Of a stretch of 64,000 nucleotides of DNA, positions 21,615 to 56,394 are shown piece after piece. The stretch's first letter is position 1. The number at the start of each line of letters is the position of its first letter. Below the pieces are notes generated by a model. It saw only the letters and a list, made by a program, of their open reading frames with translations, was not told where the DNA came from and ran no database searches. The DNA is from Blattabacterium cuenoti (GTDB lineage Bacteria > Bacteroidota > Bacteroidia > Flavobacteriales > Blattabacteriaceae): NCBI RefSeq assembly GCF_014252095.1, contig NZ_CP059210.1:25773-89772 (forward strand), given 5' to 3'. The position numbers and the translations under genes were made by a program.

Positions 21615-21663
21615 TTGCTGTTCGGAAATTTTTTTTATGTTTTTTTATGAAAAAAATAATAAT

Positions 21664-24600
21664 ATGCAAACGTTAAAAAATATTCTTTTTTCTACAAGAA
21701 TCACTTCTATTTTGTTTCTATTATTAGCTTTCTCTATGGCTATAGCAACTTTCGTAGAAAAAAAATATTCTACAGATATAGCAAAGATATTCGTTTATGA
21801 ATCTGGATGGTTTGAAAGTCTTCTGTTATTATTTGTAATAAATTTAATGGGAAACATCTGGAAATATCAACTATGGAAAAAGAATAAATTTCCTTTATTG
21901 ATTTTTCATTTATCATTTGTATTTATTTTCATTGGAGGGATGATTTCCAGATACTATAGTTTTGAAGGAATGATGTCTATAAGAGAAGGAGAGAAAAAGG
22001 GGGAAATTCTTTCTAGAAAAAATTACATCAAATTGCAAGTGAATAGAGGAAATCATACAAGATTTTATCAAGATCCTTATATTTTTTCTTCTTTTCATCA
22101 TGGATATAAAAGAAAATTTTTTTTTCAGGGAAATATTTTAAAAATAAAAATTGTAAACTATATTCCTTGTGCAAAAGTCATTCTTTCGAAAAAAAATTCA
22201 GAAGAAAAAATTCTAAAAATTGTTTCAACCAATGAAAAAGAAAGAACGGAAAATTTTCTTAAAAATGGAGAAACAATAAAAATTAATGGAATAGTATTTT
22301 CTCTTAATAGAGAAATTCCTTTTGGAATTCAAATCTTAGAAAAAAAGAATCAACTTTATGTAAAATCTTCTTTTTTTGGAAAAAGTATGAATATGAAGAA
22401 TAAAAAAATTTCCTTTTTATTAAAAAATATTTATACTCCTTTAAAAATAAGACATTTATATGAAATAGAAAATAGGAATAGAAAAAAAAATGGAAAACTG
22501 TATTGGGTTATTCCTGAAGGAATCATAAAAGGAAAATTAGAATATGTAAAATCATGTGATAATGAAAATTCTAATTTTTTGGATGCTATTACGGCAAAAA
22601 TATCGTTTCAAAATAAATCTAAGTTAGTAACTTTTTTAGGAGGAAAAAATATCACGGATATGAGTGATCCTATCTGGTTCAACAATCACAAAATTTCTAT
22701 AGGATATGGATCTATCTTATTCAATCTTCCTTTTTTTTTACGATTAAATAAATTTCAGGTAGAAAATTATCCAGGTTCTGAACTTCCATCTTTTTTTATT
22801 AGCCATGTAACATTAATGGACAAGGATAAAAATAAAAATTTTTTTATTTATATGAACCATGTTTTGAATTACAAAGGATATAGATTTTTTCAATCTGGAT
22901 ATGATCCAGACGGAAAAGGAACGCACTTTTCTGTAAGTAAAGACGATTTAGGGACTAATTTATCATATACAGGTTATTTTTTCATGAGTATTGGAATGTT
23001 TCTTACTTTATTTTGGAAAGGAACTAGATTTAGTTATCTTAAAAGAAAGTTGAAAGTATTATCTAAAATTTCTACTATATTTTTACTATGGATTAGTGGT
23101 AATTTTATTTTTTCTCATGAAAAATTCAAAAAAATTCCTTTAGAAAGCATATCTGATAACATACACATTCCTAAAAAACATGGCGAAAAATTTGGACGTT
23201 TACTTGTCCAAGATCACAGGGGAAGAATAAAACCAATTCATACTCTTTCATTAGAACTCCTCAGGAAAATACATAAAAAAAGTTCTATAGAAAACTTAGA
23301 TGCTAATCAATGGTTTATATCTATACATCAAGATAATATTTTTTGGACACAAATCCCTTTTATTAAAGTAGATCAAAAAGGCGGACTTAAGTTGTTGACT
23401 AAAGTAAAAGCAAATAAAGATAATTATGTGTCTATGATGGATCTATACGTGATAGATCCCCATACCTCAAAATTAAAGTTCCTTTTACAAGAAGATTATG
23501 AAAAAGCTTTCTATAAAAATCCCATTCAAAGAAATGAATATGACAAAGCGGTTATTAATCTTAGTGAACGAATAGGTATCATTCATGGGCTTTTTCAGGG
23601 AAGATATATTCGTATTTTTCCTATTCCAAATGATATGAATCATACATGGTCTAGTTGGGTTAGATTAGATTCCGAAAACTTAAATCCTATTGGATTTTCC
23701 ATGTTTAACCATTATCTTAGATCTTTGTTTCATGCACAGAACGAAAAAAATTGGAATATAGCAGATAATGAGATAAAAAAAATACGATTCTATCAGATTA
23801 AGCATGCTAAACCTATTTTACCTTCAGAAAAAAAAATTTCGATAGAAATTCTTTATAATCGATTGAATATATTTTATTTTTTACCTTTTTTTTATGCCTC
23901 ATTTGGAGTAATTCTCCTGACAATTTCTTTTATAAGAATTTTTTCTCAAAAAAAATACCTGTATTGGATTTCAAAAATTTTCATTTTTCTTTTATCTATT
24001 CTATTTTTTTTTGAATTTTTGGGTTTGATTTCTAGATGGTACATTTCAGGACATGCTCCATGGAGCAATGGATATGAATCGTCTATTTTCATTAGTTGGT
24101 GTTTAGTGGGGATAGGTTTTTTATTTTATCGGAATCAATTTGTATCAGGAGTGACAGCATTAATCGCATCTATTTTGTTAATGATAGCACATGGAGATAC
24201 AATGGATCCAGAAATAACCAATCTTGTTCCTGTTTTAAAGTCCCACTGGTTGATTATTCATGTAGCTATAATAACAGCAAGTTATGGTTTTTTCTTTACA
24301 GGATCCTTTCTAGGGTTTTTAGTTCTAATTTTATATGTCCTAAAAGGAGTCCATTCTAGGATGACGTATCAGAAAAAAATTCAAATTCATATTGATAAAT
24401 TAACTATTATTAATGAGATGAGTTTGACTATAGGACTTTTTTTGTTAACTATAGGAACTTTTTTAGGAGCTGTTTGGGCTAACAATAGCTGGGGACGTTA
24501 TTGGAGTTGGGATCCAAAAGAAACTTGGTCACTCATTAGTATTATGGTTTACGCATTTGTATTACATATGCGTTTAGTTCCTATAATAGGCGGATTTTCT

Positions 24601-24801
24601 TTCAATCTTTCCAGTATTTTAGCAATCAGTTCCATTATCATGACTTATTTTGGGGTAAATTATTATCTATCCGGATTACATTCTTACGCTAGAGGAGAAC
24701 CTTTTTCTATTCCTTTTTGGATTTATTTTAGTTTATTAATTTTAGTAATCATTACAATTCTTTCGTATTATTCAAATACGAAAAAAATAGAGAAGTTATG
24801 A
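21664..24801 (+). CDS. ccsBA: Cytochrome c biogenesis protein, ResB-CcsA (CcsBA) fusion
   Basis: The protein has ~1045 residues. The N-terminal part has ResB-like membrane segments (SILFLLLAFSMAIATF) and a long extracytoplasmic region. The C-terminal part is CcsA-like, with about eight spans and the haem-handling WWD motif (SWGRYWSWDPKETW). It exports haem and attaches it to CXXCH motifs. Clients here are ActA and ActE. ATG at 21664 (MQTLKN) precedes the first span; an in-frame ATG nine codons earlier (21637) is an alternative. Confidence 0.9.
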   Translation: MQTLKNILFSTRITSILFLLLAFSMAIATFVEKKYSTDIAKIFVYESGWFESLLLLFVINLMGNIWKYQLWKKNKFPLLIFHLSFVFIFIGGMISRYYSFEGMMSIREGEKKGEILSRKNYIKLQVNRGNHTRFYQDPYIFSSFHHGYKRKFFFQGNILKIKIVNYIPCAKVILSKKNSEEKILKIVSTNEKERTENFLKNGETIKINGIVFSLNREIPFGIQILEKKNQLYVKSSFFGKSMNMKNKKISFLLKNIYTPLKIRHLYEIENRNRKKNGKLYWVIPEGIIKGKLEYVKSCDNENSNFLDAITAKISFQNKSKLVTFLGGKNITDMSDPIWFNNHKISIGYGSILFNLPFFLRLNKFQVENYPGSELPSFFISHVTLMDKDKNKNFFIYMNHVLNYKGYRFFQSGYDPDGKGTHFSVSKDDLGTNLSYTGYFFMSIGMFLTLFWKGTRFSYLKRKLKVLSKISTIFLLWISGNFIFSHEKFKKIPLESISDNIHIPKKHGEKFGRLLVQDHRGRIKPIHTLSLELLRKIHKKSSIENLDANQWFISIHQDNIFWTQIPFIKVDQKGGLKLLTKVKANKDNYVSMMDLYVIDPHTSKLKFLLQEDYEKAFYKNPIQRNEYDKAVINLSERIGIIHGLFQGRYIRIFPIPNDMNHTWSSWVRLDSENLNPIGFSMFNHYLRSLFHAQNEKNWNIADNEIKKIRFYQIKHAKPILPSEKKISIEILYNRLNIFYFLPFFYASFGVILLTISFIRIFSQKKYLYWISKIFIFLLSILFFFEFLGLISRWYISGHAPWSNGYESSIFISWCLVGIGFLFYRNQFVSGVTALIASILLMIAHGDTMDPEITNLVPVLKSHWLIIHVAIITASYGFFFTGSFLGFLVLILYVLKGVHSRMTYQKKIQIHIDKLTIINEMSLTIGLFLLTIGTFLGAVWANNSWGRYWSWDPKETWSLISIMVYAFVLHMRLVPIIGGFSFNLSSILAISSIIMTYFGVNYYLSGLHSYARGEPFSIPFWIYFSLLILVIITILSYYSNTKKIEKL

Positions 24802-52718: not shown

Positions 52719-52791
52719 AAATAACGGTGATAACTGAACATATTTTCTATTTTTATAATGAATCGATCATTTCCTAGAATAGGTTTTTTCT

Positions 52792-52811
52792 GTAAAGTAG
52801 AATACTTTTAC
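52792..52811. terminator. Possible bidirectional terminator between actF and trkA
   Basis: GTAAAGTA and TACTTTTAC form a hairpin with a three-base loop and one bulge, lying between two convergent genes and followed by GGATAAAAAAA. The stem is AT-rich and weak, so this is tentative. Confidence 0.3.
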
Positions 52812-52865
52812 GGATAAAAAAATCACAAGATTTCATAAAAAAACTTTTTTGATAAAAAAAGAATT

Positions 52866-53567
52866 TTAATCATGATTTTTTTCTTTTACAAAATTCATTA
52901 TGGATTTATTAGATCCAAAAAGTGTCAATATATCTCCTTTTTGAAGAATAGTATCTCCAGTTACCAATCCAACCACTTTTCTTGTAGATGAACTTCCCTT
53001 TCCCTTATACAACATCTGATTTTTCATATCTCGTATTACCGTGATTAAAGAAACGGAATATTTTTGTGTTAATTTTAGACTTTTCACAGACTTTCCATGA
53101 AAAGAATATGGAGAAAAAACTTCTGCAATAGAATATTTATTATCCACTCTAAAATAATCTAAAGCATAATTAAAGGATATTTGTTTAGTTAATCTGAAAG
53201 CTGCGTCTTGCTCTGGATGGACAACATCGTTAATCCCCATAGCTTCTAATATGGTATCATGTATTTTTGATAAAGATCGACTAACTATTCTAAGGTGTTT
53301 ATATTTTTTTAATATCGCCGTAGTGACTATTGATGATCCTTCGTTTTCTCCAATAGCTACAATTCCTAAATCAGCTTGTTGTATCGGCAATACTTTATAA
53401 GCGGCTTCATTATTAGCATCCATACATACAACATTGGCTATATGATCTTTTAATAAATCTACTTTTTCCATTTTATAGTCTACTCCAAAAACTTCATGAC
53501 CATTGTCTGTTAAATTGAGAGCTAAAGATCTTCCAAAATTTCCTAATCCGATAATTATAATTTTCAT
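52866..53567 (-). CDS. trkA: K+ uptake regulatory protein, RCK/TrkA (KtrA-like)
   Basis: The protein is 233 aa. An N-terminal NAD-binding Rossmann motif GLGNFG (residues 7-12) with VFGVDY is followed by a RCK_C domain (VVGLVTGDTILQKGDILTLFG). As a single RCK unit it matches KtrA/TrkA that gates the KtrB/TrkH channel. It overlaps trkH by four bases. Confidence 0.9.
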   Translation of the reverse strand: MKIIIIGLGNFGRSLALNLTDNGHEVFGVDYKMEKVDLLKDHIANVVCMDANNEAAYKVLPIQQADLGIVAIGENEGSSIVTTAILKKYKHLRIVSRSLSKIHDTILEAMGINDVVHPEQDAAFRLTKQISFNYALDYFRVDNKYSIAEVFSPYSFHGKSVKSLKLTQKYSVSLITVIRDMKNQMLYKGKGSSSTRKVVGLVTGDTILQKGDILTLFGSNKSIMNFVKEKNHD

Positions 53568-55312
53568 ATGAGAATATTTCCTTGAGGAAATCTATAATAA
53601 TAATGACTATTTATTCTATTTTTTAATAATCCTACCATAATATTAAAAATTCCAATTCTTCCTAAGAACATTAAAATGATTAACACGAACTTACTTCCAT
53701 TAGATAAATTAGAAGTAATCCCTAAAGATAATCCTACTGTTGAAAAAGCGGAAAAAACTTCAAAAGAAATGGATAAAATCTCTTTTTCTGGATCAAAAAA
53801 AAGAATAATCAAAATACTTATATATATGACAATTAAAGATAATATGATAATAGCAAAAGAACGTCTAACAGACTCTGAAGAAATCTCTTTTCTTTGAATT
53901 TCTAATCGATTATTTCCTCTAGATAAAGAAATCACATTCATTAATGCTAATGCAAAAGTACTTGTCTTAATTCCTCCACCTGTAGAAGCGGGAGAGGCTC
54001 CAATCCACATCAAAAAAATCGTAAATAATATAGTAATTGGGGTCCATTTATTCAGGTTTAATACTTGAAATCCTGCTGTTCTAGATGTGGCAGAAGAAAA
54101 AAATGAAGCAATCCATTTTCCAGTAAAAGAAGGATGTTCGATAAGAGAGAAATGAAATTCACTGAAATAATAAAAAATGGTTCCAAAAAAAAGTAAGATA
54201 AAGGTTGTGAATACAACAATTTTTGTATTCAAAGTAACAATATGAGCAGGATATCTCAAATATTCCTCTTTAAAAACTCTATAAAAATATTTTTTGATTG
54301 TCATCCATATATATGTAAAAAAGTTAAATAAAATATTAAAACCTATTCCTCCCAATATTAATAAACAGGCAATAATAAATTGTAATAGATAATTAAATCT
54401 AACAGATTCAGAATAAAGACCTTCACTAAGAGTAGAAAATCCACTATTACAAAAAGCGGATATAGAATGGAAAATAGAAAAAAATAAAAGACTATCAGTT
54501 TCTATAAAACTTTTTTCCTTATTAATAGAAAAATAAATTAACAAAGTTCCTATAATTTCTACTGTTAAAGTAAACAGAACAACTTTTACGGCTAAACTAA
54601 GAACATTATTAGTAGTTTTTGTATTCAAAAAATTGCTAATGTATATTCCTTCTCTAAAAGAAATCCCGTCCATAAAAAAATAACTAAAAAAAGAAGTGAT
54701 GGTTAAAATTCCTAAACCTCCGAGTTCTACTAACGTTATAATAATCACTTTTCCCAAATAGGTAAAATCTTTTGCGGTATCTAATACGACTAGACCTGTC
54801 ACACAAACGGCACTAGTAGAAGTAAACAAGGCATCTATAAAGGATATTTTTTGAACTGTAGAAGTCGGAAGCATAAGCAAGACTGCCCCTACAAAAGATA
54901 GAAATACAAAACTAGTAATAAAAATAAAAGCAGGATTATGTATTTTGACATATATTATTCGCATAAAATAGGTAATACGAATCAATATGTATAAAGTCAA
55001 ACAAATTAATAAGGTTATTTGTATATCTGTTGTTTTATCAGTTTTTGAAAAAAAGAATTGTCCAACAGAAAAAATAAAAGAAGTAATTAAAATAAAAAAA
55101 GATAAAAAAATCATGGATTTATATCCCTTGTAGAGACTCCTTTCGAAAAAAAAACAAAAATGAAAAATACTAAGTAGGAATACGATTCCCATGAGAATTC
55201 CTATATCTAAAACAGGATTTAGAAATGTTTTCCATCCTAAAGAAATAATTATATAAAAAAATGTTATTGGAGTTATAAATGGTAATATATTTCTGAATAT
55301 AATTTGGGTCAT
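53564..55312 (-). CDS. trkH: K+ transporter membrane subunit, TrkH/KtrB
   Basis: The protein is 582 aa with many membrane segments and the repeated pore-loop Gly motifs of the Trk/Ktr/HKT family: STSAVCVTGLVVLD, SISAFCNSGFSTLS, TSRTAGFQVLN and SAFSTVGLSLGIT. It is longer than KtrB because of a ~130-residue N-terminal membrane extension, which I recall for Bacteroidetes homologues. It imports K+, probably driven by Na+ or H+. Confidence 0.9.
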   Translation of the reverse strand: MTQIIFRNILPFITPITFFYIIISLGWKTFLNPVLDIGILMGIVFLLSIFHFCFFFERSLYKGYKSMIFLSFFILITSFIFSVGQFFFSKTDKTTDIQITLLICLTLYILIRITYFMRIIYVKIHNPAFIFITSFVFLSFVGAVLLMLPTSTVQKISFIDALFTSTSAVCVTGLVVLDTAKDFTYLGKVIIITLVELGGLGILTITSFFSYFFMDGISFREGIYISNFLNTKTTNNVLSLAVKVVLFTLTVEIIGTLLIYFSINKEKSFIETDSLLFFSIFHSISAFCNSGFSTLSEGLYSESVRFNYLLQFIIACLLILGGIGFNILFNFFTYIWMTIKKYFYRVFKEEYLRYPAHIVTLNTKIVVFTTFILLFFGTIFYYFSEFHFSLIEHPSFTGKWIASFFSSATSRTAGFQVLNLNKWTPITILFTIFLMWIGASPASTGGGIKTSTFALALMNVISLSRGNNRLEIQRKEISSESVRRSFAIIILSLIVIYISILIILFFDPEKEILSISFEVFSAFSTVGLSLGITSNLSNGSKFVLIILMFLGRIGIFNIMVGLLKNRINSHYYYRFPQGNILI

Positions 55313-55405
55313 GACTGGCTCTGCTTACTCTTAGTATGAAATATTTTTTATTCTCATATTCTTTTATTTTCTTTGCACACTGATATCCTATAATCCTATA
55401 ACAGG

Positions 55406-55742
55406 TTAATAATTAGTTCCTATTTTTGTTTTTCTTATTTTTTTCATGCCATTTAAACTGAATAATTTTCCGGTAAAATAAATAATTTTATTTTTAATGA
55501 TGGCATGGACTCCAATAGGTGGATAAAACATCCACCTCCTAAAGGTTTCAAAAATTAACGTTCTATACTGGAAGATAGAGAATCACAATTTTTCCAATTT
55601 ACAAATTAGAATGAAATAAAATGGATCCTATGAAAACAATGTCTCTGAAAGACTTAGTGAACTTCTATTGATTGAGAAATAATCCATGAGCTATTTCTTT
55701 TCCTATTCTAATAATTCTATTCAAAAAACTCTTTATTTGGTT
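55406..55742 (-). pseudogene. hemC: Remnant of hydroxymethylbilane synthase (hemC)
   Basis: The 440-bp gap between trkH and tsaB holds eroded coding sequence on the minus strand. At the 5' side, RIIRIGKEIAHGLFLNQ (55718-55668) matches the HemC start (IRIGTR-S-LAL-QA). At the 3' side, SSSIER-stop-FLKPLGGGC is followed, in a shifted frame, by PPIGVHAIIKNKIIYFTG and LFSLNG, ending TAA at 55406. These match the HemC AERAFL..LEGGC..PIGA.A......F.G...SLDG block. One T added in the T4 run after the Cys codon joins the last two. The middle ~200 codons are missing (remnant ~337 nt against ~900), so it cannot be functional. A perfect 8-bp hairpin (55517-55537) lies inside. Confidence 0.8.
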
Positions 55743-55752
55743 TTATAATTAA

Positions 55753-56394
55753 TTATAAATAAAAAGGAATAAACTCTTCAATGTTATTGAATTTTTTATT
55801 ACAAAATTTCACGTAAGAAAGAAAAGACATATCCATGGCAGATGGATAAACAGGAAAAATAAAACGAAAATTATCCGTAAATAACTTCTTTACTTTTGGA
55901 AAAGTTATATTCCCAAATAAATATACTTTTTTATTTTCTGTTATAGATTGAAAAAAATCACTACCAAACTTCTTGATAGAAATAGGACATAATCTTTTTT
56001 TAGATCTATTATATAAAGTTGTATAAAAAAAATCGGATTTTGCATGTATCATAGGAATTAAAAATCCATCTTGGACATCTATTTTTTGACTCAAGATAGT
56101 TAATGAATCTAATGATAATAAAGGAATCCCTAAAGCATAACATAGACCTTTAGCAGCCGATACTCCTATTCTTAAGGAAGTGTAGGACCCGGGACCTTGA
56201 CTTACACAAATGGATTGTAAATCATTTATATTAATCTTTGAAATTTTTATAGCATATTGTATAAATGTATGTAATTTTTCTGAATGAAGATGTTTATCCG
56301 TATGTTCTTCTATGGAGATTAAGCCTATCCCGTTTTTTGCTATGCTAACCGAGCAATTTTTTGTAGAAGTTTCCAAATTTAGGATCAAAGTCAT
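55753..56394 (-). CDS. tsaB: tRNA t6A biosynthesis protein TsaB
   Basis: The protein is 213 aa. N-terminal ILNLETSTKNCSVSIAKNG and the central VSQGPGSYTSLRIGVSAAKGL are diagnostic of TsaB, the ASKHA partner of TsaD (6.8-7.8 kb). The shorter, less conserved C-terminal region is normal for the family. Divergent from nadE across 50 bp. Confidence 0.93.
   Translation of the reverse strand: MTLILNLETSTKNCSVSIAKNGIGLISIEEHTDKHLHSEKLHTFIQYAIKISKININDLQSICVSQGPGSYTSLRIGVSAAKGLCYALGIPLLSLDSLTILSQKIDVQDGFLIPMIHAKSDFFYTTLYNRSKKRLCPISIKKFGSDFFQSITENKKVYLFGNITFPKVKKLFTDNFRFIFPVYPSAMDMSFLSYVKFCNKKFNNIEEFIPFYL

Follow-up and report, generated by a model that had tools for sequence, protein, structure and literature searches.

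The stretch analysed here, called the window (64,000 nucleotides, positions 25773-89772 of the genome), belongs to a genome of Blattabacterium, an endosymbiont of cockroaches, that comprises 630,985 bp in a single contig and is hereafter called G000. Between two intact genes, trkH and tsaB, lies a gap of 440 bp, in which the first-pass annotation had read the two ends of a fragmented hemC gene, coding for hydroxymethylbilane synthase. Our analyses place this remnant at 55313-55724 on the minus strand and reveal a second remnant on the far side of trkH (Table 1).

Table 1. Features of the hemC and hemD region of the window and of the distant cysJ gene (window positions, except for cysJ).
Feature	Position	Strand	Basis and remarks
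hemD (uroporphyrinogen-III synthase) remnant, hemC-linked	52728..52873	-	DNA alignment to G018 hemD; same flanking genes
trkH, intact flanking gene	53564..55312	-	Pfam TrkH; basis of the genus tree
hemC pseudogene, C-terminal piece	55313..55577 (3' end approximate)	-	PF03900 matches; tblastn, E 4e-19; 1000 shuffles; DNA alignment
hemC middle	55578..55640	-	63 bp in place of 591 bp of G018 hemC; DNA alignment
hemC pseudogene, N-terminal piece	55641..55724 (approximate ends)	-	TTG start codon; DNA alignment to G018 hemC, 81% over a block including the tsaB end
tsaB, intact flanking gene	55753..56394	-	Pfam TsaD/TsaB family
cysJ of G000	G000:C1:381530-383200 (L058:7531-9201)	-	

A genome-wide search with the profile of the HemC C-terminal domain (PF03900) gave two matches only, both weak and both on the minus strand of the gap (55415-55519, E 0.0046; 55522-55569, E 0.056). 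PF01379 had no match across the whole G000 genome and no second hemC was thus found, as the first-pass annotation had supposed. We then queried the gap by tblastn with the intact HemC of G018, the closest hemC-bearing relative (93% identity between the TrkH proteins). Residues 226-243, 245-281 and 279-301 aligned over three stretches with an E value of 4e-19, and the best single stretch scored 68.2 bits, the highest score among 1000 dinucleotide shuffles being 24.3. As judged from these comparisons, the HemC similarity of the gap is above chance and, with the G018 query, beyond doubt.

The alignment with G018 hemC, 80-81% identical at both surviving ends, agrees with the earlier description of a gene with its ends kept, interrupted by stops and a frameshift and deprived of most of its middle. 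The N-terminal piece carries a 1-bp deletion approximately 8 codons in, with stops thereafter. Of the N-terminal reading first proposed, 'RIIRIG' stands, but 'KEIAHGLFLNQ' (GKEIAHGLFLNQ) is an out-of-frame translation past the deletion; the homologous reading continues in the next frame as 'RNSSWIISQSIEVH', corresponding to 'RDSPLAISQAIEVQ' in G018. No convincing HemC residues were recognized in the shortened middle. The C-terminal piece reads SIER.FLKPLGGGC, followed by a frameshift, then PPIGVHAIIKNKIIYFTGKLFSLNG... up to a stop at 55406-55408, and finally a decayed 3' end reaching trkH. The remnant is located where it had been reported (55406-55742), but the lower limit must be moved past 55406 to the start of trkH. 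The region of the catalytic Asp, DMAVHSLKD, which is present with small variations in the seven intact relatives inspected, is gone from G000, and the codons for the cofactor-binding motif LGGGC are still there. A functional hemC would show some 310 aa of open frame containing the DMAVHSLKD and GGC motifs; no such frame is present, the longest hemC-like ORF being 41 aa. With its above-chance similarity, its syntenic position and its inactivation by frameshifts, stops and loss of the catalytic region, the gap is, on sequence grounds, a hemC pseudogene.

The remnant of hemD had been overlooked, and two tetrapyrrole genes are dead in the window. What is left of hemD is its start region, which overlaps the end of trkA, and an inner piece of 26 bp. 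The bulk of the 705-bp gene is deleted; identity with G018 hemD is 87% over 111 bp, 33/34 bp and 23/26 bp. The G018 gene, which corresponds to HEM4 (PF02602), sits between a cytochrome-complex gene and trkA, and a hemC-linked HEM4 gene is found in all eight genomes with intact hemC. A second HEM4 gene (uroporphyrinogen-III synthase-like; G000:C1:370894-371508), unlinked to hemC, occurs in 46 of 49 genomes, of which at least G022 and G032 carry a damaged copy. It could be taken to indicate that the pathway is live, but we discarded this reading, since the gene is found whether hemC is present or absent; given this persistence, it probably has another function.

The same locus was compared across 49 Blattabacterium genomes, i.e. 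G000 and 48 relatives; a TrkH scan of named genomes had given three strains only. Intact hemC genes are found in eight of them (G005, G018, G019, G030, G040, G042, G043 and G047), always in the order trkH-hemC-tsaB, with a gap of 948-1014 bp between the flanking genes. Ten genomes contain recognizable hemC remnants, and hemC similarity is undetectable at the site in 31, including three in which it could not be measured. In the sister genome G045 hemC is also a pseudogene, with deletions otherwise different from those of G000; one 83-bp deletion appears to be common to both, according to an alignment in which similarity is weak at this point. The TrkH frame of G045 is cut short, its C-terminal part being found in another frame (L053:2435-4036), and trkH may thus be another gene beginning to decay in that genome. 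The intact HemC proteins retain the catalytic Asp motif and the cofactor Cys motif, and their dN/dS of approximately 0.2 (two pairs) indicates that hemC is under purifying selection where it is intact.

What this selection acts on is not readily explained by haem synthesis. We found no matches over cut-off to the Pfam profiles of GlutR, ALAD, URO-D and ferrochelatase (hemA, hemB, hemE and hemH, respectively) in any of the 49 genomes, including the eight with intact hemC. The same searches gave matches in most control genomes, and the method also detected hemC and hemD; as absence is here profile-based, very diverged enzymes could escape. The first-pass annotation had proposed that loss of hemC makes the cell dependent on outside haem or on a later precursor, which supposes a functioning haem pathway that included hemC. 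Indeed, hemC is absent from the genome, and haem is needed from somewhere for the c-type cytochromes of the window, whose seven CXXCH sites were correctly reported (distributed over two proteins with cytochrome c domains, six in the first and one in the second), and for the CcsBA protein also noted earlier (21637-24801), a ResB-CcsA fusion. However, the remaining genes of the pathway are missing even where hemC is intact, and in a published table haem figures among the compounds that Blattabacterium in general receives from its host (PMC9603385), which makes this explanation very improbable. Because hemA, hemB, hemE and hemH are undetectable even alongside an intact hemC, haem synthesis through the known pathway would have been out of reach of the genus, and haem autonomy lost, while hemC was still under selection, and hemC would no longer have served haem synthesis when it was lost. 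The predicted dependence on outside haem is therefore genus-wide and older than the loss of hemC; haem must come from outside irrespective of hemC, presumably by uptake from the host. Since no ferrochelatase was found with Pfam in the 49 genomes, use of a later precursor is unlikely.

The distribution of hemC points instead to sirohaem. An intact NIR_SIR protein (sulfite reductase, cysI) is encoded in exactly the eight genomes with intact hemC and in none of the other 41, and the NAD_binding_7 domain of sirohaem synthase is found over cut-off in exactly the same eight. Weak NAD_binding_7 matches in genomes without an intact hemC were discarded, as they are below cut-off and mostly located in unrelated long frames, except for fragments at the cys site of G001 and G028. 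The cys cluster of G018, approximately 0.3 Mb away from hemC and hemD, encodes a sirohaem synthase/TauE fusion, CysI, CysJ and a tetrapyrrole methylase. At the corresponding site of G000, cysI and the sirohaem synthase gene are deleted and the methylase gene (cobA) is a broken fragment, with cysJ and two downstream cysteine genes kept; from their sequences, the latter appear to code for cysteine synthase and serine acetyltransferase. A tree of 48 genomes built from TrkH gives six independent comparisons, and in all six hemC and cysI change in concert (sign test, p 0.031); a loss-only reading with midpoint rooting requires at least 8 losses when weak branches are collapsed and 10 on the full tree. 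The link between hemC and cysI is correlational, and six independent pairs make it only just significant. Nevertheless, retention of hemC in exactly the genomes that keep cysI and sirohaem synthase, together with their joint changes on the tree, suggests that its last role was in sirohaem synthesis for sulfate assimilation, with which it would have been lost. Two genomes fit a module caught mid-way through its loss: in G028 hemC is frameshifted, cysI truncated, and cobA and the sirohaem synthase gene damaged, and in G045 hemC, hemD, cysI and cobA are all present as remnants.

With regard to the architecture of the synthase, G018 (L057:5991-7490) and several relatives have a single 499-aa frame in which its N-domain is joined to a sulfite exporter domain (TauE). 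The frame is only 209-219 aa long in G042 and G047, in which the TauE fusion is split or absent.

Could the gap serve as a small gene or RNA? Its best candidate, the 41-aa ORF at 55406-55531, is open and weakly matches the C-terminal domain of HemC, but the catalytic domain is missing from it, and its start falls within the old reading frame past a frameshift. In addition, sister genomes carry other partial deletions at the site, hemC is undetectable there in the 31 genomes mentioned above, purifying selection on the ORF was not seen in relatives that lost hemC, and an Rfam search of the region gave no match. We thus give this possibility hardly any weight. Although long A/T runs are prone to error, an assembly or sequencing artefact in an otherwise intact hemC can practically be dismissed in view of the multiple lesions, the 591-to-63-bp replacement, the loss or breakage of hemD, cobA, cysI and sirohaem synthase in G000 and the decay of the same site in its sister G045.

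Taking together the remnant, the intact genes of relatives at this locus, the lack of the other haem genes, the strict co-retention with cysI and sirohaem synthase and the stepwise decay among genomes, we consider it highly probable (approximately 0.9) that hemC and hemD were kept for sirohaem and decayed after loss of the sulfate-assimilation module. The ancestor of Blattabacterium would already have had a haem pathway cut on both sides, without hemA and hemB above and hemE and hemH below. HemC, together with hemD two genes away, would have been kept only for the conversion of porphobilinogen, probably taken up, to uroporphyrinogen III and then to sirohaem, the cofactor of the sulfite reductase CysI. 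In the G000 lineage, the module would then have been lost, with deletion of cysI and the sirohaem synthase gene and breakage of cobA, leaving hemC and hemD free to decay, presumably through small deletions and frameshifts first and large deletions later.

Parts of this scheme have precedents. Porphobilinogen has been modelled as imported (PMC3287516; PMC3819652) and, in the models of strain Bge, is already routed to sirohaem (PMC3819652), that strain having been credited with sirohaem genes (PMC2768785). The cysNDHI genes are missing in the strains of Periplaneta americana, P. japonica and others, whereas Bge and the strain of Mastotermes have them (PMC3287516, PMC6039017). The known loss of sulfate assimilation in Blattabacterium thus affects the same pathway, with the same patchy retention among strains as found here. 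In contrast with what was known, our analysis shows that the distant hemC and hemD genes follow the cys cluster across 49 genomes. Among the papers searched, none mentioned Blattabacterium and hemC together.

In endosymbionts, the loss of one member of a pathway frees its partners from selection, a process called the 'domino effect'. Kinjo et al. reportedly applied it to gene loss in Blattabacterium in 2021, and that genus-wide study may already contain the pattern of hemC co-loss. As in the 'domino effect', partners are released from selection and relatives harbour graded pseudogenes; beyond the general case, a specific link between a cofactor and its enzyme, from sirohaem to CysI, is involved here. 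Given the loss of sulfate use, that of hemC in G000 is ordinary genome erosion proceeding by modules, sirohaem synthesis decaying with sulfite reductase. The locus thereby provides a clean example of domino-type loss, with a full decay series at a single site (intact, frameshifted, partly deleted and erased) and recurrent, independent losses linked to a single pathway. It also corrects the tempting inference that a missing hemC means haem auxotrophy: haem autonomy would have gone first, and hemC would have lived on for sirohaem only.

The survivor of the module is CysJ, the flavoprotein of sulfite reductase. It is kept in all 49 genomes, with cysI intact in only eight, and its dN/dS is 0.31-0.43 in comparisons involving G000 and G045, neither of which has an intact cysI. 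In 10 genomes its open frame is reduced to 354-377 residues, corresponding to the FAD/NADPH reductase half. The flavodoxin half is encoded in a separate frame in G028, G032 and G035, and is undetectable in G006, G008, G009, G014, G025, G037 and G038; in G026, it is also absent and CysJ is frameshifted inside the reductase half. These sequence features suggest a new role for the reductase half. We would give even odds to a broader proposal, namely that hemC, hemD, cobA, sirohaem synthase and cysI were lost as a unit many times, CysJ being always kept and in places reshaped through loss or separation of its flavodoxin half, with its FAD/NADPH reductase half serving a new electron acceptor.
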